Shown: piece after piece, positions 10,824-28,303 of the stretch | How the letters are laid out: each line of letters begins with the position of its first letter | How positions within the stretch are numbered: the first letter of the stretch is position 1 | NCBI GenBank assembly: GCA_022376515.1 | Contig: WTXI01000196.1 | Location: forward strand, 1-64,000 | Length of the DNA: 64,000 bases | Origin: Lactifluus volemus | Lineage: Eukaryota > Basidiomycota > Agaricomycetes > Russulales > Russulaceae | Direction of reading: 5' to 3' | Position numbers and translations under genes: made by a program | Notes under the pieces: model-generated | Databases searched by the model: none | Told to the model about the DNA's origin: nothing | Seen by the model: only the letters and a program-made list of their open reading frames with translations

Positions 10824-10979
10824 TACATCAGGAAAATGTTGCGGTGCTAGAGTTGCTAGATCTAGGCCCGCTAGTGTCACCTAGTCACGTTTAGTAATCA
10901 AGTTCCTGTGCTAGCGAAAGCAGACTTGCCTCGACTTAGGAAGCTGATCTAGATCTAGGCAAGCTCTAGGTACGCCAAG

Positions 10980-11075
10980 TTTTGCTACTTTCACTAGTTT
11001 TGCTACTTTCACTAGTTTTGCTACTTTCACTAGTTTTGCTACTTTCACTAGTTTTTCAACTTTCGCTACTTTCAC
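10980..11075. repeat. 18-bp tandem repeat, four copies plus a degenerate tail
   Basis: The unit TTTTGCTACTTTCACTAG is repeated exactly four times (10980-11051), followed by a diverged half-copy (TTTTTCAACTTTCGCTACTTTCAC). It lies in the left subterminal part of Plavaka-1, where transposase-binding repeats would be expected. Confidence 0.92.
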
Positions 11076-11120
11076 ATCTAGAGCAATTCTGACTTCTTGG
11101 GCTAGATTTCGTGCCTAGTG

Positions 11121-14040
11121 CTAGTAATTCTCGCTGTTTTCGTGCCTGAGAAATGACAGTCCAAAACCAGATAACATTTCTATATGTAATTCAATAACAT
11201 GGGTATCTAGCCGAAGTTCTTTATCACCCGATTGATCTGTCTCCAGCCCCGCAGATACGGGGTTCTTCACCGCGTGACAGTTATGCGCGAGGGATCTTTG
11301 CATACACTTGAGCTCGCAATGATAAGAGAATGATAAAAATACGCACCAATCCAAATCAATGCAAGCGCGGAGATCAACTAATTCACCTTGATCACCGTCC
11401 ATGTTCAGTGCGTTCACCATTTTGGCTGGGAGGTATTTCCACGCTTCCTCAACGACTTGAGCCCAGTGGCGATCATTAAGCCGTCTGGTGGTCCCGACCC
11501 AGCTGCGAGTCTTCCTCCCCCAGGGATTATCGGAGAAGCTCCACACACGAGAATTGACCTTGGACTCGGATTCTTGCTCGGATGCCGTTGAACCATCCTC
11601 CTTGGTCTTCGAGTTGATCCGGGTCTGATTGCGCTCGGCCTGTAGCGCTAGATAAGTAACAACGCCACCAAAACAAAATGGGACGTGATACCTTTATACT
11701 ATCCTCCCCGGTCTTAAACGCGGACAGACCACGCTCGACCTGTAACACTAGATAAGTAATGATCATGGTAATAATAGTAAATGGAATGGGACGTTACTGC
11801 AGCCGTTGCAAGTGCCAATGCCCCTATTTGCCGAGGGCATTCGTTTACCTCTGAGTCATCGAGCGGTAGGATCCTCCGCAGGTGCACAGAATATACCTTG
11901 GCAATCAAACTCGAGCAAAATGTAGCACGCATTTCCTGGTGGCTATGTCAGGCACAGTAATATGATGTATATAGGCGTACCTTCGCTGCATCTGGGTTCT
12001 TATGAATGAATTTGAAGCCGTGCAATGCCTTTTCAATGTATTCGGCGCGAGCTTCTGCGTTGCCAAACGTGGCCGGATCCTCGAGCCACAAGTCTACGAT
12101 TGCTCGGTACCCACTCTTCCCTATCTCGCTGCGCCAGTTGTTGAGCAAAGTCTCGGCCTGGGAGGGTCAATAACGCATGTCCACTTGTCTGATTCCAGTA
12201 CATACCACACTCAGGACTATATCTAGTTCATGTTCACTAAGCACAGAATCAGGGAATGCTGATGACCAAAAGCCCGCCAAAGGGCCACGCATCCTGGCGT
12301 TCGCGCCAAAGGGGTCGGCCTGCGTTCCGGCCCAGATTAGCAAGGAAGGTACAACAGTGTTTTGCCACGTCTTTATATTTTCGCCATTTGGTGGACCGGG
12401 AAAAGGCAGATCGGTTGTCATATATCTTGTCTTCCTGAGACGCTGAGGCGCTTTGGTATTTCCCTCCATCATAGTGCCCGTCGGATCCTGGTTAAGGACA
12501 ATGCCCATCTATTTCGACGAGGAGCTGACAATCATACATAGATCAAACACAATTTGGATCTTACCTGTGCAGTCTCCCGCCCACCGCCAACCCTATTGCT
12601 GCCAGTGAGCGCGGCACCTTTTGATCTGCTCTGAGCCACTCTGGAGGCTTGACCCACAGTAGACTTGCGAGCCCTTACTCGACCAAGCACATCTTCCGAT
12701 TCTTCGTTGTGAGACTCGCATATCGACGCCTGGGCCATCGTCACGCTGGAACCTGAGCTGGTGCTGATGTCTATCTCTTGAGCCATGGGTCTGGGCGCGC
12801 TGTGGACGTGGCTGCGTCCTTTCTTACTTAGTTGTGCTGTTGTATCGATGGATTTCTAGTGAGCCTTGTGGTTAACACGGAAGGGGGGGTGTTACTGTAC
12901 CTGCCGCGGCATTCGTTTTCCAGTCGTCAAGCAGGCCGGCGTTTGCTCCTGTCACGGTCCTTGCACGCTTGGCGCGATCCAACCTAATGGTGGTGAGCCT
13001 CAAACTTTGGGTTACATCTATAACTCACTCTGCGAAATTAGCCTGGACTTTTCGTTTAATCGCTATGCTTTGCCGGGGCTGAGCAGGCGGTGGAGGTGAC
13101 GGCGTCGCGGTTAGCTGCGTCACGGATGGAGTGCACGATTCATTCTCATTCCTAATTGCTGTTAGCCTTAGGTCTAAGCTTTGGGTTGCACTATTACTTA
13201 CTCGTCAGCAATGCGTTCGTATATTGGACGGGGCCTTGGTCGAGATACTGGTTCAGATGGCTGTGAACGCACTCGAGTCGTGGCTCGATCACGGGGTGCG
13301 TTCAAGTCATCAATTTCGGCTCCGGGGCGTGCCTATCATCGCAAACCTAAGTTTCCCATCAAACTCAAAAAACACGAGGCGGACACACCTTGTCAACAGT
13401 CTTATCAACGTTACCCATGTCTTCTTCATTTTCCACTCCGTCGTCCACATACGCCGATACTGCGTCGTCCTCGATGCATTCGCTGGCTCTCTTGTCCCAC
13501 TCTTCATTGCTGATGACATCAATTATTGATTCACCATCAGTGAACGACGCCGGTGATACAGTCGATACATCGTCGTAAAACGCCGTGGGGCTGGCCCTGT
13601 TGCTTTTCCAACCAGCAGAGTAGATGCTACAGCTATTGTCAAGGTCAGTAAAAGCGATCATGTCAGAGGTGAGTCGTGAATTACCTGTCTTCCTCATCAA
13701 TCTGCTCACTGGCATCTACTTGGGCAGCATGTGCATGTTTCATCTGCCTCGTCATGAACTTCGACTGCGTGCTTGCCTGTCCACTGTGACGCAAATCCGG
13801 CCGAGTCGCGTGCTTTTGTGTCAACTGAGAGTCTCGCTGGATCTCGTCTTCGAGTTCGTTGATACGGCCGACGATTTCTTCTAAAGTGGCTTCTGCTCTT
13901 TCTGCCGCTTCTGCGGCTGCTGCCTCCGCCCGCATCCTATCATCTAAGATCTGCTGAGGAGTACGACGCTTCTTCTGGGTGTCGAGGACAACTCGCCCTG
14001 GGTGCGTCTCTGCATTTTGTTTTCGGGTAGTGATTGGCAT
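11121..14040 (-). CDS. Plavaka-associated accessory protein, multi-exon, function unknown
   Basis: The gene runs leftward from MPITTRKQN (14040). Exon 1 (to 13685) has an Ala/Glu coiled coil (AAAAEAAERAEATLEEI). Exon 2 (13632-13389) is acidic. Several short exons then lead to a conserved-looking core: FPGPPNGENIKTWQNT with SLLIWAGTQADPFG (12508 down to about 12208), NNWRSEIGKSGYRAIVDLW (12137 down to about 11982), then ALALATAAVERGLSAFKTG (about 11840-11700), and finally WSFSDNPWGRKTRSW (11546). Introns are about 50 bp with GT-AG ends. It is divergent to the Plavaka transposase within the same terminal repeats, so I infer a transposon-borne partner gene, of a type I recall as common beside Plavaka transposases. 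No enzymatic motif was seen. Exon borders in the middle are approximate. Confidence 0.6.
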
Positions 14041-14458
14041 GTTAGAGACTTCGAGAGATTGGGGGTCTGGGAAGGCTTATTCCTTACGTGTCGACGTTTG
14101 AACAACTATTTCTGAGATATCGCACTGACCCCATTTTTCCTTTCATGTCTAGTCCCGACGGCATTTACTGCCACCAGTACCGACTAAAATGGCGGCCGTC
14201 GCTTGTGAGATCACAGTGCGTATGCTCCTCTGTGTTGCTGCGCTCCCCTCTCCTTCCAAGACTGGTGACCGAGTCTCCCTGGTCTCAGCAACTTTCAGTA
14301 ATTACTCACGTTGCTGTCTTATTCTCCCACTGATAGATATACATTTTCTCTGCGTTTTCTTGCTGCCCGCCCCCTGGCAAACATCCTGACCACAATCGTG
14401 ACTACCGCTTGCAACTAGCGATGCATACTTACTGTACACCCTTTCAATTCACTCATGA

Positions 14459-14956
14459 CCGGTGCGCAACTTTCCCCGGTTCATTGTAATTCAGTAGCGA
14501 TCGGTCCATTTTCACTTGTCAAGAAAATGGCGCATGGTACAACCGGTGCACAACTTTCCCCGGTTCTTTATCGATCAGTAGCGAGCGGTGCGTAGTTCCC
14601 CCGCTTTCAATCATTGCTCGTATTCCCATCTTATTCACCACCAACAGATCCACATTACCATTTATTTCGTGTTCCCTGCTCAGGCTGTATGCCATTTCTG
14701 CTTCTTTCTGACCTCTTAATTCTGGTGTGCCCCTTCGGTCCTATTCTTGGCGACCGGTGCGCACTTCTCTCCGGTTCCTTGGCATTCAGTAGCGAACGCC
14801 GTATATTTTTCTCGCATTCCTTGCTGTACAGCCTTTCAATTCATTCACGGCCGGTGCGCAACTTTCGCCGGTTCCTTATCGACGGTAACGAGCGGTGTGC
14901 AGCTCAATTGGTTTCTTGTCATTCAGTAGCAACCGGCGCATGCCTTTCCCCGGGTG
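14459..14956. repeat. Interspersed CCGGTGCGCAACTTTC-type repeat, about seven copies
   Basis: Variants of CCGGTGCGCAACTTTCCCCG followed by GGTTC and then TCAGTAGCGA recur at about 14459, 14542, 14585, 14754, 14851, 14890 and 14931. Spacing is irregular. They lie between the two divergent Plavaka-1 genes, so a shared promoter or protein-binding array is possible. Confidence 0.75.
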
Positions 14957-15133
14957 ATTTGCTATGCACCACAGCTAACACGTGTAACTCTATCTCTGAT
15001 AGACCATGACATGTCCCTCTGAGTCCTCCCTGTCTTCGAAGCCTCATGCCCGTGCATGTCAGCTGGATTATTGGCTACACAATCACCCATTCAGTAAGTC
15101 CTTCCTCTCCGTCACCACCTCTTCACTCTCACC

Positions 15134-18100
15134 ATGTCGTCATCATCCAGACTCCCTTGCTTGTTTTCTGGGTGCCCCCTTATGTTCAAGAGTCAGCATG
15201 GCCGCACCTATCATGTCCGCACGTTCCACATCAATTCCAACGTCCGTTCCTATCCAGGACAAAGTCAGTCCATCCCTGAGTCCACACAAGCACCACCGCC
15301 ACATGGCAGCCAACGGATCGAACATCCTCACCTAAAGGGTAAGGGTTTTCTTCACTTTTATGTACATTAGTGACGATCCCTCAACAAGCTCTTCCCTGCG
15401 ATGCCAACGGGACGTTCCTTCCTCCCGGGAGTCAACCAACACCCCGTGCGCACGCGACACCCGATGACTGGACCCCATTCGAGAACAAGCTCCAATTCCT
15501 TGTAGCCGACCTTCTGTACCGCCGTGTTGAGATGTCGGCCACAAGTATTGACTTGTTGATGGAGCTGTGGGCATCATCTATGGATGGCTTTGGCACATCC
15601 AGCCCATTCCGGTCTCACCAGCACATGTACGCGACAGTTGACTCGTCATCCCTTGGTGGCGTTACATGGAGATGCCTTGTTGCTGGATTCTCTGAGAGCA
15701 TTCCTAGGAGCGCTCCTAGCTGGAAACGGACAGACTACGAGGTATGGTATCGAGATCCTGACGAAGTTGTACGCACAATGCTAGATAATCCCGACTTTGA
15801 TGGACAATTTGACATGCGTCCTTACATTGAGCTAGACAAGCGTGGTAAGCGTTGTTGGAGCAACTTCATGTCTGCAAACATAGCCTGGAATCACTGCGTA
15901 AGTACTAAGTGTTGCATTCATCATCCATACGCTAAGTTGATGACTTCTCAATCAAAAGGATGACATCGCGCTGCACCATCCCGATAGTTCATTTGGCGCG
16001 ATGTACTGTCCACTGATTTTAGGCAGTGACAAGACCACGGTATCGGTTGCGACGGGACACGTGGAATATCACCCCTTGTACCTGTCCATAGGTAATCCGC
16101 ACAATAAAGTGCGATGTGCGCACCGCAATGCTGTGATTCCAATAGCGTTTCTTGCTATCCCCAAAGGTATGTTATATTTTACTTCTACCGATGTAAGTTC
16201 AAGCCCATATGTACATGATGACCTAGGTGACCGCAGGTATGACAACGACCCTGAGTTTCGCAAATTCAAGCGCCAGCTGTACCATGCGTCAATATCGGCG
16301 ATACTGCGAACCCTTCAACCTGGGATGACGAGTCCAGTCATCCGGCGCTGCCCAGATGGCCACTACCGGCGGGTCATTTTTGACTTGGTGGCCTTCATTG
16401 CTGACTACCCTGAACAAGTCATGCTAACCGGGATCGTCCAGGGCTGGTGCCCAAGGTAAGTAGCCTCCTAGTTTGGATCAGCAACTCGATACTGATACTG
16501 CAATAGGTGTACTGCCTCACCAAGTGATTCCGGCAGAGCGTCAGGACCGCGAACAAGAAATCTCACCGATGAGCTCATCAAGCTTCTAGACTCCAGGGCA
16601 CTTTGGGACAAATACGGAATCGATGATGACGTCGTTGTGAGTATAAAATATGCAACTCAATCTACGCATTACTAACAGACTCGGATATTATAGCCATTTA
16701 CAGCGGATTTTCCACGCGCCGATATCCACGAGATGATGTCACCGGACCTTTTACACCAGGTTATCAAAGGGGGATTCAAGGACCACCTTGTAACTTGGGT
16801 GTGCGACTACTTGACACAGACGTATCGCGGTCAAGCGAACAAAGTTCTTGATGACATCGATCGTCGGTACGTCACAAATTCTCTTTTCACACTGGTATCG
16901 AGCTCACACACCGAGTAAGAATTGCTGCTGTGCCGTCATTCCCTGGTCTTCGCCGCTTCCCGCATGGTTGTCGCTTCAAGCAATGGACAGGGGACGATTC
17001 TAAAGCGCTGATGAAGGTATGCCCACACCGCTGATGGTGTAATTCCCACGACTTAATCTTGATATAGGTTTATCTACCTGCGATCGTTGGGTATGTGCCA
17101 GACGATATGGTAACATGCATCTCGGCTTTTCTCGACACTTGCTACATCGCCCGCCGCCAAGTCATAGATGAGGACGCCTTGAAGCAGTTTGATACCTCCT
17201 TTTCCAAGTTCCTGCAACTACGCGAAATATTTCGTGCTACTGGTGTCCGGCCGTCCGGTTTCTTTCTTCCACGTCAACATATGCTGACGCACTATCACGT
17301 CCTCATCCAAGACTTTGGTGCACCAAGTGGGCTTTGCTCATCCATCACAGAGTCTCGACATATTACTGCTGTGAAGAAACCATGGCGGCGCTCTAGTCGG
17401 TTTGAAGCACTCGGACAGATTCTTTCAATAAATCAGCGCCTTGACAAACTCACAGCAATGCACTCGGACTTCGTTTCCCGTGGGATGTTGCCAGCGGGCC
17501 ATATTCCTCCTTCTGGTGTCTCGTTCCTCCCCCCCCGAGATGATGGCCCACCCACGAGTGGCGATGGTGACGGCGGCGATGATGACGGCGGCGATGATGA
17601 CGGCGGCGATGATGACGGCGGCGATGATGACGGCGGCGATGACGGCGGCGATGATGACGACTCAGATGGAGAGCCGGCCGATGATAACGTGCTTGGGCAT
17701 GTTGTCCTTGCACGCTCACGCAGTGAGTACTGTAGTAATTATCTATGCTATTTATACGAGTTTGGAACTGATATACTATACCGAACTAGTGAAAAACTAT
17801 CCTCAGACTCTACAAGAACTTGCAGCAAAGCTAGATGAAACCGACCTCCCTGCGCTGACGCAAAGGTTCCTTGCTGATCAGCTTGGTGCTGGCCCGGGAG
17901 GTGCACTGGCAAGCTTTCTGCGGATCACAACTACGGTTCACGTCTTCCACTCGGCCACAGCAACCTTCTTTGCCCCAAGCGATCCTAGTGGCATCCGGGG
18001 CATGCGACGCGAGTGCATACGAGCGACACCTTCATGGCGCGGCAAGGGACCAAGACATGACACCGTCTTCGTGGTCGAGGATGACAAGAAGCCGGGAATG

Positions 18101-18427
18101 CGTGGACTCAATGTTGCACGCATTCAATTATTTTTTTCTTTCACGTACAATGATGTTAAATTTCCATGTGCGTTAGTTGAATGGTTTACGAGGGTGGGCG
18201 TGGATCACGTCACTGGCATGTGGGTGATACGTCCAGATTATATCCGCAACAGACGGAACCGGGCTGTAATTCATCTTGATGCAATATTACGTGCTGCTCA
18301 TCTTATCCCAATCTATGGTAGTCATCCTTTACCATTAGAGATCAATTCATCGATATCACTAGACACATTTAGAGGATATTACGTCAACAAATATATCGAC
18401 CACCACGCACACGAGATCGTTTTCTGA
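15134..18427 (+). CDS. Plavaka-type transposase
   Basis: Nine exons read through in frame: 15134-15338, 15389-15897, 15959-16166, 16227-16455, 16507-16636, 16694-16866, 16920-17016, 17068-17722, 17790-18427. The N-terminus has a C2H2-like finger (CLFSGCPLMFKSQHGRTYH). Plavaka hallmarks follow: YCPLILGSDKTTVSVATGH, YHPLYLSIGN, RCPDGHYRRVIFDLVAFIAD, ADIHEMMSPDLLHQVIKGGF, and a C-terminal domain ending HLIPIYGSHPLP. Aspartates in these motifs fit a DDE-type catalytic core. The Asp/Gly repeat at 17561-17660 lies in a linker. No stop or frameshift was found, and it sits inside paired terminal repeats, so the copy could be active. Confidence 0.88.
17561..17660 (+). repeat. 15-bp coding microsatellite (Asp-Asp-Asp-Gly-Gly)
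   Basis: GATGATGACGGCGGC is repeated about five times in tandem with partial copies at each end, encoding DDDGG repeats in the transposase linker. The length is a multiple of three, so the frame is kept. Confidence 0.95.
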
Positions 18428-18595
18428 TCTTGTGCCGCGTTTAATATACCTAGGTCAAGTACAAATTCTAGGGTACCTAGAAAAGTCGAATTCGTGCTAG
18501 GAACTGGCTAGGATGCCTAGAAATAGGTAAGCTAGGACGGCTAGGCATCTCTAGCGTCGCAAGTAACTCTAGCATATAAACATTTTGCTGATGTA

Positions 18596-18963: not shown

Positions 18964-21900
18964 TCAATTCATTGGGTAGTTTTCTTTAAGAAACATATCG
19001 GCATCCACAGTATCAACAAAGTAGTGGGCTTTCTCATCCTCGCGCTGACTCACAGGACAGAGGAGAGCGCCACGAAGTACATAGTCCATAGAAACTAGGG
19101 ATGATTCCACATCCTCGTCAAGCACTCTGCAGCCTGACCAGACCGTTTTTGGCTTCCAGTGGCTTTGAGAGAACCGGTGTACCAGAGCCAAATCAATATC
19201 GTTACCGGATGGCAAGCTGCAACGAATTAGGTCACAAAGGCGCGCAACACTGAGATTTGGGGCGTCATCGTGGATGATCACGCAGTCGAAACGTGGTTCA
19301 CCGTGAAAAGATGGATTACATCGCATGATATCCCGGCCTTCAGTCCAATCTTCAAGTGATTGAAACTTCAGTACAACGTTTTTATATCGTCTTACCTATT
19401 AAATATCAACCTTATAGGATTCTCAAGTCGCAAAATAAGCAAAGGAGAACTCACAAATACTTCGTCCTCATAGCTTAGTGCCTCCTCAGGAAAATGGAAA
19501 GCAATGAAATCTCTCAAGCGTTGATCAAGGTCGTGGTATTCTCTATGCGTCTTCGAGCGATCTTCCGCAAGAGCTCGGAGGTTCATTCTCTTCCCCTCCA
19601 GTGATCCGAATGTCCACGGCCGCAAGTCTAATACATTATTTGCTGCTGCTTCATCAGCTCCACCTTCAGATGCGATTTGACGGGCTTGAGTGTCATTGTC
19701 GATAGCCATGCGGATACGAGCTATTGCTTCCAGTTTTTCATCGATAGCAACCATCTATTATGATAGTGGTAATAACAAAAATGACTGACAGCTTATCTGA
19801 AAGCTCACCTGGTGCTCTGCATGTTTCATGTTCGTCTGCTCGAATGCTTGAGACGCTTCCTGCTGAACGCCTTCACCATTCCGTGTAGAAAAATTATCCA
19901 CCGTTCCTTTCTCCTTAATGTCTTGTACAACATGCTGGGAAGCATGTTGCTTTAGAAAGTCGAAGCTCTTTCCATACTCCATTGTAACCTTCTAAACTGA
20001 ATGAGTGGCTAAAAAAGCTAGTTGAAAGAAAACCAGAAGACGTACAGTACAACATTTCTGGTAGATAAGAATGGCCATCTCGAGGTGCTTGATTCGTCCA
20101 TCCGTCATGCAGTGGAGACCGACCAGAATTCGATACCGAATATATGCACGGATACATTGCACGAGCGATGAGTTCTTAGGAACAAGGTCAACAACACAGG
20201 GAAGAATGCACTGATTTGGAACGTCAGACAAGAAGAACTCTTCACCAACTTGGTTACTCGCCTTCAAGATATCATAGAAGGCCTGTCCATCTGAAAACTC
20301 AGTCGTGCTAACAGCATTGAAGTGCTTCAGGCCGCTCCATCGAGGAAATTTTGCCATTCTAGAAAAGGGACAGTCAATGTCTGAAATTTACATTCAAGAC
20401 CCACTTACCGCGCTGTAAGTTTCCCCTTACCACCTGAGTTCTCCAGAACGGCCAGAAGGAGCACCCAAAGATGCTTTCCCCACTTTCCCAGGTCATCAGA
20501 ATGTAAGGTGTCATATGAATATGCTCTGTACGGATCTGAAAATTTAAAGTCCCAAAGAAAGTGCTGTGCAGCGTCAGTGTGGCCCAGGCCCGGGCGATAA
20601 GTGTCACAGATAATCCTTTTGAGATGCGGCTTACCTCCACGTTATGAAGCCCGTGAGCTTTTAGAACCTCTTCCCTTGCACCTTTTGTTTTCGCCTTTGA
20701 TGCGAGGTTGATCACCGCTCGCATATTTTCTGGGGTACGCGACTCTGCAAATTTACCAGTGATATTGTGTAGGTCTGAATGCGAAATAAGGCACTTTGGA
20801 CATGGGTGGTTAGCCCCAGCTGCACGGCATCCGCAGAAATAAGCGGCTTCTTCTGCATCCTGTGATTCGATCAAGATACCAGGGTACAGCACACGGGTGA
20901 TTCCGTCTGCACAGAGGTGGGCATCCCCATTATGAGAGCGGCGTTGGAGGCTGCTGAACACTTTCTGAAGAACCTTCTGGTAAACTTCATTCTTGAATCG
21001 CGAAAACTCTTCCTTCTGAGGTGCTGACTGGCTCGACGGATCGGATGGGTCCAAAATCTGGGACTGCAGTGAGAAAAATGACAGGAACGGGCATATACTA
21101 AACGGACCATAGGCATGTATCCAAGAAGTACTCCACCACCATTCCCAGAAGCATTTCTTATCTGACGTGGGAGCCATGCAGCCCGAAGCACCATAGGATA
21201 CTTTTTGATGCGTCGTGTGACAAGACCTTTGTCGAGCCAAAAATGTAGCGGAAGAAAGCAGTGGGGGAACCCACTACTTGCATCGTCAAGCTCATTCTAA
21301 ACATCTCCAAGTCAGAGGTCTAAAGAAGGGAAAAAAATCTGGGACGGCTCACATCGACTTCCCACCAAACATCTGCTGTATTTGGCTCGTCATAGATGCG
21401 TTCCTCATGATCTCCCTGACAGTAAAATTTTTTGACGGCATTCCACATATTCCACGGCACTAGTGACTCGTCTTGGATGAGTGCCAAGATCCATTTCCAA
21501 GGATCTCGATACTCGAAAGTAATTTCGCGAGGTTGATCTTCGTATGTGGCTGTGATCGTTCCGCTCTTGAACTGTTTATATGTAAGTTTGTAATATTGTA
21601 ACCAATGTCGAAGGATATAATTGCACACCTGAACAAAATATGTGCGGGCTTTTGAGAGTACCCTCTCCATATCTCTGTGGTTCTTGATGGAGAGAAAACT
21701 TCCCAGCGCCCACGTTGAATTAATTCTCGCCAATTGCGTGTTCACCAGTTTTTTGGACAACAAACCCTTTGTGGCTGTCTCAGCGTACTCGAAATCGACA
21801 AGATTCTTGAAAGGAGCCCAAGGACGAACACTGGGCTTGGGTTGAAAGGCAAGAGTCTCTTTGGATGAGGTCAAGAGAATAATTTGGGTGGTAGGATCGC

Positions 21901-22345
21901 GAGAATGAGGGTGGGGTACAATCTTAAGGTATTCCTGAGGAAAGTTTAAATCGGTGGCAGGATGTTCTACACATTTAATGTTCTTTTGAGAATGCCGCAT
22001 GACCTGTAAAATCTGTGCTCACCAGGTTGCTCTGTTGCATTGAGGCCTATAGGTGATTGAGATGGTCCTGGAAGATCATCGCTCATGTCCACCTGCATTG
22101 CACTTGATCCTTGAACAAATTCTGGCTCATTTTGTGATGTTTGGGCTTCAGGCTCGGCAAGTGGGCCTGCCGCCTCGGTTCTCCAAGTCCTTTGCTCACT
22201 GAGGATCTCCCATTTGGTTTTGCATGCTTTCAAATGTTTATCAAATCGATTTGTTGGCCGATTAGTGTTACAGTAGCAACATGTTCTATATAGATTCTCT
22301 AGTCGAAGTCTCGACTTTTTGGCATCCTTAGAACAACGGGGCATT
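18964..22345 (-). CDS. Second Plavaka-like transposase, probably degenerate
   Basis: Pieces on the minus strand follow the usual Plavaka order. MPRCSKDAKKSRLR opens with a CCYCNTNR...H...C zinc-finger-like start (22345). Next come WAPFKNLVDFEYAE (about 21820) and WWEVD (21360). After introns come LPLHFWLDKGLVTRRIKKYP (about 21235), then YPGILIESQDAEEAAYFCG with CRAAGANHPCPKC (about 20870-20800). FSDPYRAYSYDTLHSDDLGK is at about 20530, KFPRWSGLKHFNAVSTTEFS at 20350, and a C-terminal module ends ADMFLKENYPMN at 18964. A supposed intron near 22040 would be only about 20 nt, so a frame break there is likely. It may be the original transposase of the 23-kb block. Confidence 0.75.
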
Positions 22346-22678: not shown

Positions 22679-24090
22679 ATGCCACACACAAATTATACAC
22701 AGAGCCCTTCCCATTCCCCACCGCCTTCGGAGGATGAGAACGCTCCACCTCTTAGCCTCAAAACAAGTAAAGCGGCACTAATTAAGGTGAGTGAGACTCT
22801 GTAGCTTCATGAATACCACTTACTAGTCTTGTGATTATGTTTTGGAGATTGCCCGACAGCACCAAGCTCAACGGAACACACTCAACCAAGAAAATGAGGC
22901 CCTTCGTCGCAAACTCGCTGACATCTCCAATGACAACGATGACAACGACAACGACAACCATGGGGAGGGAACTACACGCAGCTCAAAGCGCCAGAAGATG
23001 CGCAACCCTTCACCCCCTGGCTCTGACAACGAAACTCTGGACAACACTAGCGGTGGTCAATCCGAAGACCAGTTCGTCAACGCTATTGGCCAGAAGTTCT
23101 GCATCCTCTATGCACTTTGGGTTCATAAGGGTGAAGATATCTTCAAGGTCAAACTGGATGATGCGTACGATGCCATTGAAAGATTCGAGAATGACAACAA
23201 CAAAGTCCAGGGCCAGCTACAGGAAATTGTCAGTCTTCTCAAAGAGAAGCTTAATCAGGACACCATTCTTCAGAAGTGGGTGCGTAGGGAGGTATGAAGA
23301 CTTTCACATCTTTTTATTTATTGAATGTGACTAAGATCGATCCAGTTTATGAAAAGCCTCAATAGTCAGCGCGCCAACACAGCATCTCGCATTCGTCACA
23401 ACTGCTCTGCCGTCTTTGGGATTCTCGACACTGATTTGGTTGATCCCGAGCAGCGAAAGGCCAGATTCCGCGGTCGCATAGGCTGGGTACCCAACAAAAC
23501 CGGAGGTGGAACGTACTCAAGTGTTGACGTTGATATCATTCACAAGGATTACTTGGGCAAGTACGACCTATCGAAGATTTTCCTCAGCCCCGTCCTGATG
23601 GCAGTGAGTGCCTAATTTTCATACTACTGAAATACGTTGAGGGCCTTCTCAGCTTTTCGTCGCTCTCATCCGTGGGCCAACGGCAGGAAGGAACTTCATG
23701 CTTGGACACACATCATATCATCCCCAGACAGAGACTATAGCCCGCATTCATGGCATCCACAACACCACACCAGGTGCCATCGCCACATGCGCTATCCTGG
23801 TATGTTAAGACTTCCTCGTCTGGCTCTTCCTTTTTACTAACTATTTTATTACAGGCCCGCTGGGCGCTGTCTAGTGATGTCTCTCTCCAAGAAGTGGGGA
23901 GCAGCACTGGCATACGATACTTCAAGGACTATGAAGAATATCTCACAATGCTCGAGGTGGGTTTACGACGCAGGAAGAAGTCTATTGTCAACATTTTCAG
24001 GGAGTGGGATGCAAAGATCTTTCCAGATACCGCCTCTAGCCTTGCAAGTGCTAAGCCCAGCAACGACTACATCAGCAATTGTCCATGTTG

Positions 24091-24350
24091 CTTAATGGTG
24101 ATTAGTGGTCTTAATGGTCTTAAATTTACTTTTTTGCTTAATTTTGCTTGATGAAAATTTTGTTTAAGCACAATTAAGCAACTTAAGCAGGCTTAACATG
24201 CTCAGCACAATTAAGACTGGCATTAAGCATGCTCAGTATGCTCAGCACAATTAAGACTGACATTAAGCACACTCAAGATATTTAAGCAAGTAATGAAATT
24301 TAAGGGGCTTTTAATTGTGCTAAGCAAACAAATCTAATTTACATAATTTA
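24091..24350. repeat. Left subterminal GCTTAA/TTAAGC array
   Basis: About 260 bp contain a dozen or more copies of TTAAGCA or its complement, partly as CTCAGCACAATTAAGACTG repeats. It mirrors the array at 27585-27840 and is probably the transposase-binding region. Confidence 0.88.
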
Positions 24351-24902
24351 ACTAATCTGAAAATGTTGCAACTTGTGAAAATTTTGCTAAGTCGTTTGTT
24401 TATTCTTGTTGGCATGATGCCAGTGTTTTCGTGCCTTATCATTTTCGTGCCTCATTTATCTTCAACCACCGGTCGCCTCCTTTCCGTCTCCCCTCCGTCT
24501 CCGTGTCGCCTTCTACATGTCCTGGGCTCCTCTGTCTCTACCATCTCTCGTTGTCTGGCACCACCTCAGGTTTCTGTTTTGGCCTGAAGTGCCTAGCACC
24601 ACGTGCAATGTCTCAGCCTGAGCGTCCCCGCCTTCCCCTTGCCGCTGCGACTGCCTTTGTCTGGTCCTTGGTGCGTTTTTTTTTTTTTCGTTTGACTTCT
24701 TAGACTAACTTTTTTGTATTCCTCACTTGACCCACAGGCACTAAGGGTTCACACTGTCACGGTGCCGGCCCCAACTCCTCCTGCGCCGCCACTCTGTTGA
24801 CCACTCTTTTTATTCACAATCATCCACCAGACCTTCCTGGGCCACGGTCCACAGCTGCCTCATCTTCACGCGCACGAAGCATGACACCACCAGAAGGAAT
24901 CA

Positions 24903-25800
24903 TTGTCGTTACAGACACCCCTTGAGCACCCAACACCCACGCTTCCTTCTCCTTCGCTCTCAGCCTCCGGCGGGAGTTCCGGCAGACCCGGTACACGTCC
25001 GCTTCGTAGTTCACCCCTCGCAAATACCCCTGTATCGGGTGGCGATGAGGAAGAAGTCAAAGGCGAGAAACCTACCGCCCAGAAACCACGACCGGCATCT
25101 CCCAAAGCTACAACGCCTGTGGTTAAAGTGGAGCCCTGGATCGACCAATCCAACAGGATAGCCCCCCCTGCGAAAGAAAGGCCCATGACCCCGCCGCCGC
25201 TCGCTACAACAAAAGGGGCCGCTCTCAGCAACAAGCCTTCCTTTTCTTCCGCCACAGCCGCGCCGATCGTGGCGTCCCCGGTTCCGATGCTAAACCTGAG
25301 TAGCTTCTCACTCGGTGCTGCTGACGCAAAGCCCGTTGTGGATGGTTCAACAAACATTGCCATCCCATCCGTGTTTGCGGGTCTCAAACCCTGGCCAACT
25401 CAGCCTTTCACCGAAGCCCGAAGCAAGTAATGCAGAGACGCCATCTTCTGCCCCCGACACAAAGCCTCTGCCTACCTTGGGGACCGCACCTAAATTGCCC
25501 TTCGGTGCCTCGTTTGGGGCATTGCCCCTTGCTGCGGCGCCCGCTACTATGACCCCGCCAAAAGATGCAGCCCCACTGGAACGCATGGCGCGCGAATTTA
25601 TGAGTCTGTATACCGAACTTGATTTGGAGTTGGCAAAAGTAAGTCAAGTCTCTTACGTGCTTCCACTTTAATTCATTCCCCACACGTTCTACATCTAAGC
25701 TCGGCAAACTCTCTCGCGAGCAGCGCGAGCAATGGGCAACGCGGCCTGGTTCGGCTCCCACCGCTGCTTCCCGCCGCCCCGAAGTACTCAACCCACTCCC
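24903..25800 (+). pseudogene. Captured fragment, possibly of an FG-nucleoporin
   Basis: A Ser/Pro/Ala-rich stretch with KPSFSS, SLGAADAKP, PFGASFGALPL and a following helical piece (ERMAREFMSLYTELDLELAK) runs into a next exon LGKLSREQREQWATRPGS after a GTAAGT...TAAG intron (25640-25699). There is a frame break near 25430. The low-complexity FG-like part followed by a coiled-coil-like segment suggests a nucleoporin of the Nup159/Nup214 kind, but this is weak. No intact protein is expected. Confidence 0.35.
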
Positions 25801-26230
25801 CTCGACGTAAGTAACATGCCTGAGGACGTTGTTGACTACTACCGACGTGTTCGTACTTCCCTCACTCTTTCCCTTTTCCCAATAATACAAACCAACTTGA
25901 CAGTGCACGGACTATAACGTTCGACACGTGAGAGATGCTCTGGTCAAAGTCGAGCCCTCTCGCGAGAAGCGAGGTGCTCAGCAGAACGCAGGGCTCTTCC
26001 GGCTCTGCCTTTTTTTTCTCCCGCAGACGTCGGAATCGGCAGTAGTGGACGACTCTTCATGGGCTTGAGGAACCCAGCAAGATGCTTGTTTGACCCGTGC
26101 GTTTGCTGTTGCCCGATTACACCTGGACTTTTTACCCTTCCTATGTCCCGTCACGACGATATTCGAAACGTCGTGCTCTGAGAGATACACGCCCATCTCA
26201 CCTGCGCGCGCACGTGTGTTGGTAAAAATG

Positions 26231-26478
26231 ATGACTCGCCACGAGGCTGTCCCCGGTGGAAAGCTCAATTGGGGAATGAGCGTTGTCGATTCAGTCGCTA
26301 TCCTCAAGGGTCGCGACCTTACTGGGACAGAGTACTTCAAAGCAGCCGTCCTTGGCTGGTGTGTGGAATGGGTTTGCCTCTTTGCTTTACCCCCTTATCA
26401 TTGCATCCCACTGACCATCCGCTCAGGTTCCAACCCTACTTCCACATTTCCGATGACATGGTGGACGGGGAGCACAAC
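26231..26478 (+). pseudogene. Captured farnesyl diphosphate synthase fragment
   Basis: The piece reads [19 protein letters not shown], then [20 protein letters not shown] and CVEW, a GT-AG intron, then [17 protein letters not shown]. This matches the farnesyl diphosphate synthase (ERG20) region GGKLNRGLSVVD...LGWCVEWLQAYFLVSDD with the first DDxxD motif, where the Asp residues bind Mg-diphosphate. Only about 75 residues are present, and the intron is retained, so capture was at the DNA level. The rest of the enzyme is absent, so no activity is expected. Confidence 0.85.
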
Positions 26479-26878
26479 CCGTCACTCCTGTGTGCCCGCC
26501 CCACCCAATGCATCCCGACGCCTCCTTCTCATGTCTTCTGGCCTCGCTCTACCACCCATCCAGGGCTCTCCTCAACAGCACGCACCCAACCCGCATTTGA
26601 ACCATCGGAGTCAGAGCCCGACGCAAGGTCGTGCCCAGACGCAGAGTCGTCCGCTCTCCCCTTCACCCAATGCCGGAATCGGAATCGGAATTTGCGATCG
26701 TGTGTGCAGCGTGTTTCCTGGTGCGTGATCGGTTTGGCTGGGCCTCCTGTCCTTCTCCTACTAGTAGGACTCCTTCCGTACTGCCGCCCAACCCCGAGCC
26801 CACCGCTCCTCCTATTTCTGGCCCAAGTCCCCCGACGATCCCGGTAGACCCGCGCATGCAACTTCTCACTGATATGGT

Positions 26879-27443
26879 GTGCGCGTTCCATATGGGTATA
26901 CTCTCTGTGCAGCATCTTTCGTACTGATCTTTGGTGATGTAATTCATCTGGTGCTCGGCTACTCCCTCGTTGTGTGTCGGGCCCGCAAGGCAAAGTACGT
27001 TCACCCATTCATCGCCATCCCCGTCACATCATCTCATCTATCTACTCAGGATTCCCTGGTGGCTCACGCAGCGTATGATCCTAAATCTTGCCCTTTCGGG
27101 TGGGCTTGGCCTCTTGCCTGGCCTCGGCAGTGTCCTACTTACCTCCTTCCGACCCAACGTGTGCAACGCAGCCCTCCTCAAGGAGTACCTCCACATGCGT
27201 AGTAGGAACAAGCCAAAGGTGGCAGCAGCACAGTCTGGGGCTCTGGCGGAGAAGAAGACCGACCTGGACGATAAGGCACAGATTGCAGATGAGAAGGAGA
27301 CCTCCACAGATGAGATGAAAGCCACCCTGAAGGACGAGGAGGCATCAATTGGTGGCATATGTACTGATTCCCCCCCCCCCCTCATGGTGGTCCCACATGG
27401 GACTCCGCAGTGCCTCCGTGGCCAACTGCTCCTCCATTATTGA
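26879..27443 (+). pseudogene. Captured DUF4112-family fragment
   Basis: A first piece reads FGDVIHLVLGYSLVVCRARK, followed by an intron (about 26999-27048) and then MILNLALSGGLGLLPGLGSV with LLTSFRPNVCNAALLKEYL. This corresponds to the membrane-associated DUF4112 domain: a glycine-rich GD...Y segment followed by LLN...PxxG and a RNxxLLEE-like end. A Lys/Glu-rich tail (KKTDLDDKAQIADEKE) follows to the stop. The function of DUF4112 proteins is unknown. The fragment keeps its intron and lies just inside the right end of the Pack-type element. Confidence 0.7.
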
Positions 27444-27584
27444 TTGCCTGGTGGTGCTGGTGGATTGAGGCCATATGCACACTCAGATAGAGTATAGATA
27501 GTGTACTGATGTTGTAGTATAGTTGACTGAATATACTATCTTATGCTCATCATTGATTGAATTTTACCTGATACTTCTGTGTGC

Positions 27585-27840
27585 TTGAAACTGCTTAATG
27601 TTGTGCTTAGATTGCTTACATGTGCTTAATTTGATGCTTAGTGCTGCTTTAAAAGGTAATCGAACTTCTTGGAATTTTGCTTAATATTGTGCTTAATTAA
27701 GCACAATTAAGCACAACATGTGCTTAATTAAGCAGAATGGTGCTTAATTAAGCACCGGGGTGGCGTTAACCTGCTTAATCGTTTTGTGCTTAATTTGTGC
27801 TTAACGTGCTTATTAAGCACGTTAAGCACACATTAAGCAA
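27585..27840. repeat. Right subterminal GCTTAA/TTAAGC array
   Basis: GCTTAATTAAGCAC-type words are packed at almost every 10-20 bp, several as palindromes. It runs directly into the right terminal inverted repeat (27831-27858). Confidence 0.9.
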
Positions 27841-28303
27841 CATGGACAATTGCTGATGCTATGCTGCTGGCCTCAGGTTGTTGATGGCTTCGATCGAGCA
27901 TGACACAGAAGAACAGGATGACAACGCTGGGGGGATATTGGACCAGCAAGCATTTAGGTTCTGTACTACTGTAGTAGCTCTGTATTTTGCTCAAATGACG
28001 TATACTCCCAAAAACGCCTCGTGTCCACCACTCCGAATTGTGCCTTGGGCATGCTTGTCATCCCGGCGTCTGTTCCCGTCTCTACCTCTCAAACTCACCC
28101 GCGCTCTCTCTCGAGTGTACACTTTGATTTCCATAACTGAGATTGCAAGTAATATCACGCAATACAGCAGAGCATAACACATTCATCAGATCACAACTGA
28201 TAATACTGGTAAATCAGATAAGATGTGGTACATGCGCTCGACACCAATATGGCTGATCTTGATCAGCAGTCAGCAGTCCTGGTAATACAAAGTTAGGTAC
28301 TGG

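Follow-up and report, generated by a model that had tools for sequence, protein, structure and literature searches.

How does a DNA transposon come to be filled with pieces of several host genes? The question is raised by a 64,000-nucleotide stretch of Lactifluus volemus DNA (assembly GCA_022376515.1, contig WTXI01000196.1, positions 1–64,000; hereafter the window), in which positions 24070–27858 form an element of 3,789 bp bounded by perfect terminal inverted repeats (TIRs) of 28 bp. Several models compete to explain how TIR transposons come by such fragments. We consider it highly probable that the element is a Pack-type, non-autonomous PlavakaB transposon that acquired its host DNA in rounds, likeliest through break repair inside the element. 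Searches were made in one genome, a draft assembly of 62.4 Mb in 628 contigs, in which contigs and fetched loci carry C and L numbers, respectively.

The boundaries proposed by a first-pass annotation, which was made from the sequence alone, were recovered exactly. The left arm (24070–24097, plus strand) starts with CATCAG and the right arm (27831–27858, minus strand) finishes with CTGATG; both are common to a wider family of elements, the 28 nt of the left arm are 100% complementary to the right arm, and the end pattern had 0 matches across 100 shuffles of the window. The trinucleotide CTA is read on both flanks (24067–24069 and 27859–27861) as the two copies of a 3-bp target duplication, so that the duplication claimed earlier is present, although it departs from the family norm of 2 bp. 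Inside the ends lie a left subterminal block (24070–24395) with TTAAGC/GCTTAA repeats and a right subterminal block (27726–27858), again common to the family: 33/33 other elements match the start of the window element, the shared stretch ranging from 121 bp in L038 to upwards of 300 bp, and 33/33 match the right block at approximately 80–100%. The dense GCTTAA repeats noted at the outset amount to 25 GCTTAA/TTAAGC motifs in the element, each at most 330 bp from an end, with 39 in the whole window. Four interior reading frames gave no transposase match in Pfam, in line with the original description; an Rfam scan of the window returned no match, and neither did the 28-mer end in viral contigs. 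With TIRs, no transposase in the frames scanned and host-derived coding DNA, the element has the defining features of a Pack-TYPE transposon.

That host DNA is a mosaic from five separate, unlinked chromosomal loci, which were resolved by a genome search with the interior followed by local alignment, Pfam being run on the donor frames. At the level of sequence alignment the element is confirmed as a composite of fragments of farnesyl diphosphate synthase (FPPS), a probable NUP159 nucleoporin, a helicase, an unnamed proline-rich gene and a DUF4112 gene. The first FPPS piece (24789–24823, plus strand), which reaches the donor start codon, is 94% identical to positions 434–469 of the donor locus L053 on C334. 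It is followed by the probable NUP159 fragment (24824–25752, plus strand), which contains an intron-like segment, lies inside FPPS and matches its donor on C601 (L049) at 94% and 97%. Then come FPPS piece 2 (25753–25808, plus strand; L053 470–525, 98%) and piece 3 (25811–25920, plus strand; L053 616–725, 83%), an antisense RNA helicase fragment (Helicase_C; 25924–26253, minus strand), also inside FPPS and 92% identical to donors on C149 (L051) and C301 (L052), and FPPS piece 4 (26248–26483, plus strand; L053 723–957, 89%), which holds an intron-like segment and, by eye, the DDxxD motif. Farther to the right, two pieces of a proline/serine-rich gene without a Pfam match (26528–26899, plus strand, 86% to C343, locus L054, and 85% to C92; 27333–27424, plus strand, 83% to L054 233–148) enclose a DUF4112 fragment (26906–27339, plus strand; PF13430) with a possible intron by eye, whose donor on C113 (L050) is 91% identical.

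On the captured DNA itself, Pfam returned DUF4112 (2.2e-07) and a weak polyprenyl_synt match (0.0072) under the cut-off; on the donor frames it returned polyprenyl synthetase (C334, to which the four FPPS pieces align at 83–98%), Helicase_C (1.2e-11, minus strand of L051) and DUF4112. The FPPS and DUF4112 fragments recognized earlier are thus upheld. What had been listed as perhaps a nucleoporin does align to the C601 locus, and the name NUP159 is probable only, because the frame that matches proteins named nucleoporin NUP159 lies downstream, while Pfam returned nothing for the captured stretch, which has one unnamed homologue. The better matches of the downstream frame that carry a species name include Russula and Lactarius, which points to a host probably in the Russulaceae. 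Two statements had to be given up: that there were three captures, since five donor loci were found, and that all share one orientation, since four donors are in sense and the helicase is antisense. The prediction that parental loci would match across introns is borne out for the nucleoporin and FPPS donors in their intron-like segments (introns by eye); as these segments are present in the element, it was genomic DNA that was captured, and the five separate loci exclude a single ordinary gene. In the FPPS donor region, C334:956–979 kb (L053 being 977400–979400), several FPPS-like stretches, 80–89% identical to the captured fragment, stand in a row and are perhaps a local FPPS array.

The element belongs to a family that has been mobile. 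Its end occurs 86 times at no more than 3 mismatches, with 0 occurrences of a reversed-pattern control, which answers the early question of whether other elements with these ends exist; the exact 13-base core of the end occurs 89 times. The fetched loci yielded 34 paired elements, 1,960 to 15,374 bp long, whose interiors fall into 19 clusters (70% mutual coverage) and whose ends are shared over at least approximately 120 bp per side in 33/33 others. An apparently decayed member at C1:85391–86823, which matches the interior and the end scaffold of L032, has no 13-base end, so counting ends underestimates the family. Matching flanks of 2 bp were found in 24/34 elements (p ~9e-22 versus a chance of 1/16), a match over 3 bp only in two (the window element and L037) and one over 4 bp only in L016.

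Sibling copies are 98.4–99.8% identical in the seven multi-copy clusters compared, the eighth (L038 with L044) standing outside the comparison. L025, the sole full-length sibling of the window element, is 98.7% identical over aligned bases (98.4% by BLAST) and lies at a different site, so this type of element has transposed whole since its captures. When the 300-bp flanks of the 34 elements were compared, no insertion site shared between same-cluster copies was found, and six similar pairs emerged, with L029 and L030 as the sole case of similarity within a cluster. Here a stretch beside L030 consists of both L029 flanks joined and overlapping by TA, the dinucleotide that borders L029 on each side, and is a related empty site for L029 with a 2-bp TA duplication. 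Another, between the two L012 elements, is their shared 100 bp, and the remaining four are short matches of 28–60 bp, one of which supplies the second half of the L029/L030 similarity. In 17 of 24 pairs of sibling copies, transitions at CpG account for over half of all differences, a count made without a control for CpG content; this suggests methylation and decay.

What kind of transposase could have moved these elements is indicated by their ends. As outlined in a 2025 paper (PMC12730594), Plavaka elements are related to EnSpm, Mirage, Chapaev and Transib; PlavakaB, found in Agaricomycotina hosts and defined by transposase phylogeny together with termini, has CATCA..TGATG termini and target duplications of 2 or 3 bp, and some families carry TET/JBP. 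The same source gives CAC..GTG ends and a 3-bp duplication for CACTA/EnSpm and, for hAT elements, a duplication of usually 8 bp and at least 5 bp. The Pack family starts with 5'-CATCA and finishes with TGATG-3', and its duplications are mostly of 2 bp, with 3 bp only in the two cases above; its CATCAG..CTGATG ends and 2–3-bp duplications accordingly fit PlavakaB features on the sequence evidence. A matching autonomous partner would be an intact PlavakaB element with the ends CATCAGCAATTGTCC. Pack-MULEs, which belong to Mutator, have target duplications of 8–11 bp and long TIRs, and a Mutator identity was rejected on a TIR of 28 bp with a duplication of mostly 2 bp. CACTA/EnSpm was rejected on the CATCAG ends and hAT on the mostly 2-bp flank duplications. 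The Pack-type assignment of the first-pass annotation is therefore supported, whereas its comparison with MULE and CACTA elements gives way to PlavakaB. The Plavaka transposase PF18759 has 168 matches in the genome.

Autonomous copies were sought among the five longest family members (9.9–15.4 kb; L038–L047) and rejected, as the frames scanned in each have reverse transcriptase, RNase H or integrase domains and no transposase, so that the members of 10–15 kb probably contain nested retroelements. In two further loci, L055 (C334:1388339) and L058 (C609:144094), the family end is present for its first 20 bases and then gives way to different sequence; a frame of L058 is TPR-like by eye with no Pfam match. 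A pair of ends 14.5 kb apart, C334:1388339–1402877, in which the left one has diverged, had no Pfam match in the two frames scanned.

Capture is not peculiar to the window element. The survey covered eight elements from 8 of the 19 interior clusters (the window element plus six queries covering seven more), and low-copy host fragments were found in seven: the window element, L033, both L012 elements, L015, L032 and L009. The interior of the eighth, L010, returned high-copy or family sequence only in the genome search, with no low-copy host fragment. Pfam identified glyoxal oxidase in L015 (donor C112), aldehyde dehydrogenase in L024, of the cluster of the first L012 element (donor C168), and WD40 in L011, as well as formyl transferase at the L033 donor C246, an adaptor medium subunit at the L032 donor C434 and SAM at C423, a donor of the second L012 element. 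Many donors sit on two contigs at near-equal identity, which we infer are perhaps two haplotypes. A strand bias of captures is not claimed, since the window element and L015 (glyoxal oxidase versus the C556 frame) both mix strands.

In these elements, fragments are nested, and the nesting follows identity to the donor (weighted over aligned pieces). In the window element, FPPS as the outer fragment is 89.1% identical to its donor, with the nucleoporin (95.7%) and the helicase (92.1%) inside it, and the outer proline-rich fragment is 85.0% identical, with DUF4112 (91.2%) inside it. L033 has formyl transferase at 80.0% around a C91 fragment at 94.2%; L032 has a C611-type stretch at 87.3% around the adaptor fragment at 90.0%; the second L012 element has a C2 stretch at 78.4% around a SAM-gene fragment at 96.6%; and L015 has two levels, from a C246 fragment (86.4%) through glyoxal oxidase (93.1%) to a C556 fragment (97.6%). 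The inner fragment was nearer to its donor than the outer one in 8/8 pairs identified. For two nested captures, uninterrupted states survive. At the site of the SAM-gene insert of the second L012 element and of L028, L009 has unbroken sequence with an overlap of 4 bases, and L011-type elements on C24, C43, C74 and C618 have the outer stretch of L015 without the glyoxal oxidase insert, with only approximately 100 bases where L015 has glyoxal oxidase and the C556 fragment. Nested captures with known donors and these two uninterrupted cases provide states before and after insertion, and models of capture can thus be tested by counting.

Such a count was made by eye at 16 nested junctions. Eight have neither overlap nor filler, four have 3–6 bases of filler, one has 48 unexplained bases, and the last three show overlaps of 1 base, 6 bases (imperfect) and 7 bases (imperfect). 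At the insertion point the outer locus is intact in two cases, shows a 3–4-base overlap in two and has lost 14, 101, 214 and 674 bases in four; at the nucleoporin insert no donor base of FPPS was lost. This variable loss, unlike the fixed duplication of transposition, fits break repair with inserted DNA.

Taken as a mechanism, these observations would run as follows. The CATCAG..CTGATG ends and the GCTTAA arrays would serve as recognition and cutting sites for a Plavaka transposase acting in trans, and the element transposes as a unit, leaving 2–3-bp duplications, as the siblings elsewhere and the uninterrupted target of one member attest. Its interior is copied host chromosomal DNA from several rounds of pick-up: the nested structure is visible, and the order it implies would have one gene's stretch acquired first and later ones inserted into it or replacing part of it. 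The likeliest route would be repair of double-strand breaks that arise within the element, on excision or at unstable repeats, in which unrelated genomic DNA would be copied or joined in, mostly without microhomology. On balance, we also incline to regard the Plavaka-driven family as a layered recorder, in which each new fragment enters a break in the previous one, usually without microhomology, so that nesting depth would give the order of captures and donor identity their age; nested captures would then preserve, in part, the succession in which host pieces entered.

Several observations pull in the other direction. Seven of the 34 elements have no matching flank of 2–4 bp, and a genome search with the flanks of the window insertion, made for its empty site, returned only the window itself. 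Among the PF18759 matches listed, checked by eye, none lies inside any of the 34 elements, and Pfam scans on a subset of frames from each of the five longest elements found no transposase. On the side of the donors, the frame tested had no Pfam match at C556, C91, the other C246 locus, the C611-type locus and C73, and the outer locus of L032 (C611-type) is present at five genomic places. The sign test on the order of identities (0.004) is optimistic, because gene rates differ, FPPS and glyoxal oxidase are each counted twice and the test was picked after the pairs had been seen. The FPPS pieces that flank the nucleoporin (94% and 98%; 36 and 56 bp) are as near to their donor as the insert is, and it is the other pieces that pull the FPPS mean down.

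The strongest competitor of break repair is template switching guided by microhomology, during replication or gap filling, as put forward for animal Pack-TIRs. It would lead to the same kind of outcome, and the three overlapping junctions are of the sort it predicts; the other 13 of 16 have no overlap, whereas in the set of PMC8277862 67.6% have microhomology at one breakpoint or at both, a figure not strictly comparable with the junctions counted here. We regard this route as possible but clearly less probable than break repair largely independent of microhomology. More doubtful is the fusion of neighbouring insertions, the plant Pack-CACTA/Pack-TYPE model, in which two nearby copies are mobilised together with the intervening DNA. 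The model as presented in PMC8903248 also predicts new DNA towards the centre, and neighbouring insertions do occur in this family, because two members stand 100 bp apart on contig C32 (L012). Fusion does not, however, predict a fragment within a fragment with neither a terminal-repeat remnant nor base loss, as seen for the nucleoporin in FPPS and for the adaptor in L032, and no 13-base family end was seen by eye within approximately 45 kb of the donors, a search that decayed ends would escape. Capture of transcripts as cDNA, proposed for the Dothideomycetes (PMC6710886) where hAT elements carry histone H3, is very improbable here: it is contradicted for the window element by the nucleoporin and FPPS intron-like segments retained (by eye), and piece borders disregard exons. 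An ordinary chimeric gene, a segmental duplication or an assembly artefact has hardly any probability. The window-element flanks do occur only once in a 628-contig draft, yet a full-length sibling exists elsewhere, an entire family carries these ends, one member has an uninterrupted target and the mosaics draw on unlinked loci.

Helitrons are rolling-circle elements without TIRs or target duplications. Those of Pleurotus with captured genes (PMC4289320) resemble the present family in the capture of gene fragments in a mushroom. As far as the accessible text of the respective reports goes, PlavakaB itself (PMC12730594) shares termini and 2–3-bp duplications with the family, which differs in its interior of host fragments and in having no transposase found. 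Plant Pack-TYPE elements (Pack-MULE, Pack-CACTA; PMC8903248) likewise have TIRs, are non-autonomous and carry coding DNA taken from several host loci; the differences are the fungal host, the Plavaka ends and nested captures with an identity gradient, where PMC8903248 favours fusion of neighbours. Animal Pack-TIRs (PMC8277862) also hold non-transposon sequence within TIR elements, and gap filling is proposed for them, but they are mostly single-copy with frequent microhomology, whereas here one element draws on several donors, copies have been amplified and most junctions lack overlap. In Pyrenophora and Pseudocercospora, transduplication of histone H3 by hAT elements (PMC3538342, PMC6710886) is a further case of a fungal DNA transposon with a host gene; it concerns one gene, with transcript capture proposed, in contrast to genomic fragments of many loci between Plavaka ends.

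The fungal novelty suggested initially needs a correction. Capture by a fungal transposon was known from the hAT case, as is capture by TIR elements in general, while no Plavaka Pack family was found in the open-licence literature searched (subscription journals being outside its scope), nor was iterative, intron-retaining, multi-gene shuffling by Plavaka in mushrooms met with there. In the accessible text, Pack terms occur only in the reference list of PMC10853768, PMC10799480 mentions rice Pack-MULEs as background, and PMC9674265 mentions Plavaka only for a deletion. The present family is set apart by its Plavaka ends, by how many donors a single element has, by nested captures with an identity gradient and by junctions that mostly lack overlap. 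It extends multi-gene Pack-type shuffling to a group of transposons that is abundant in this mushroom genome.

The window also holds a Plavaka transposon of its own, at 10826–18593 (plus strand; 7,768 bp), with CATCAG..CTGATG ends, TA flanks and PF18759 in two stretches (15607–16462). Its end pattern recurs approximately 7.7 kb apart around PF18759 matches on C35, C57, C290, C465 and C596. It shares the terminal hexamer with the Pack family and has a different inner repeat sequence; it shows what kind of enzyme occurs here, and it is a candidate partner of the Pack element. Between the two lies a weaker Plavaka transposase relic (20374–22000, minus strand). The Plavaka transposon has its own subterminal repeats, and its ends recur elsewhere in the genome in pairs approximately 3.1–3.8 kb apart; such pairs may mark a second family, of non-autonomous or Pack elements.

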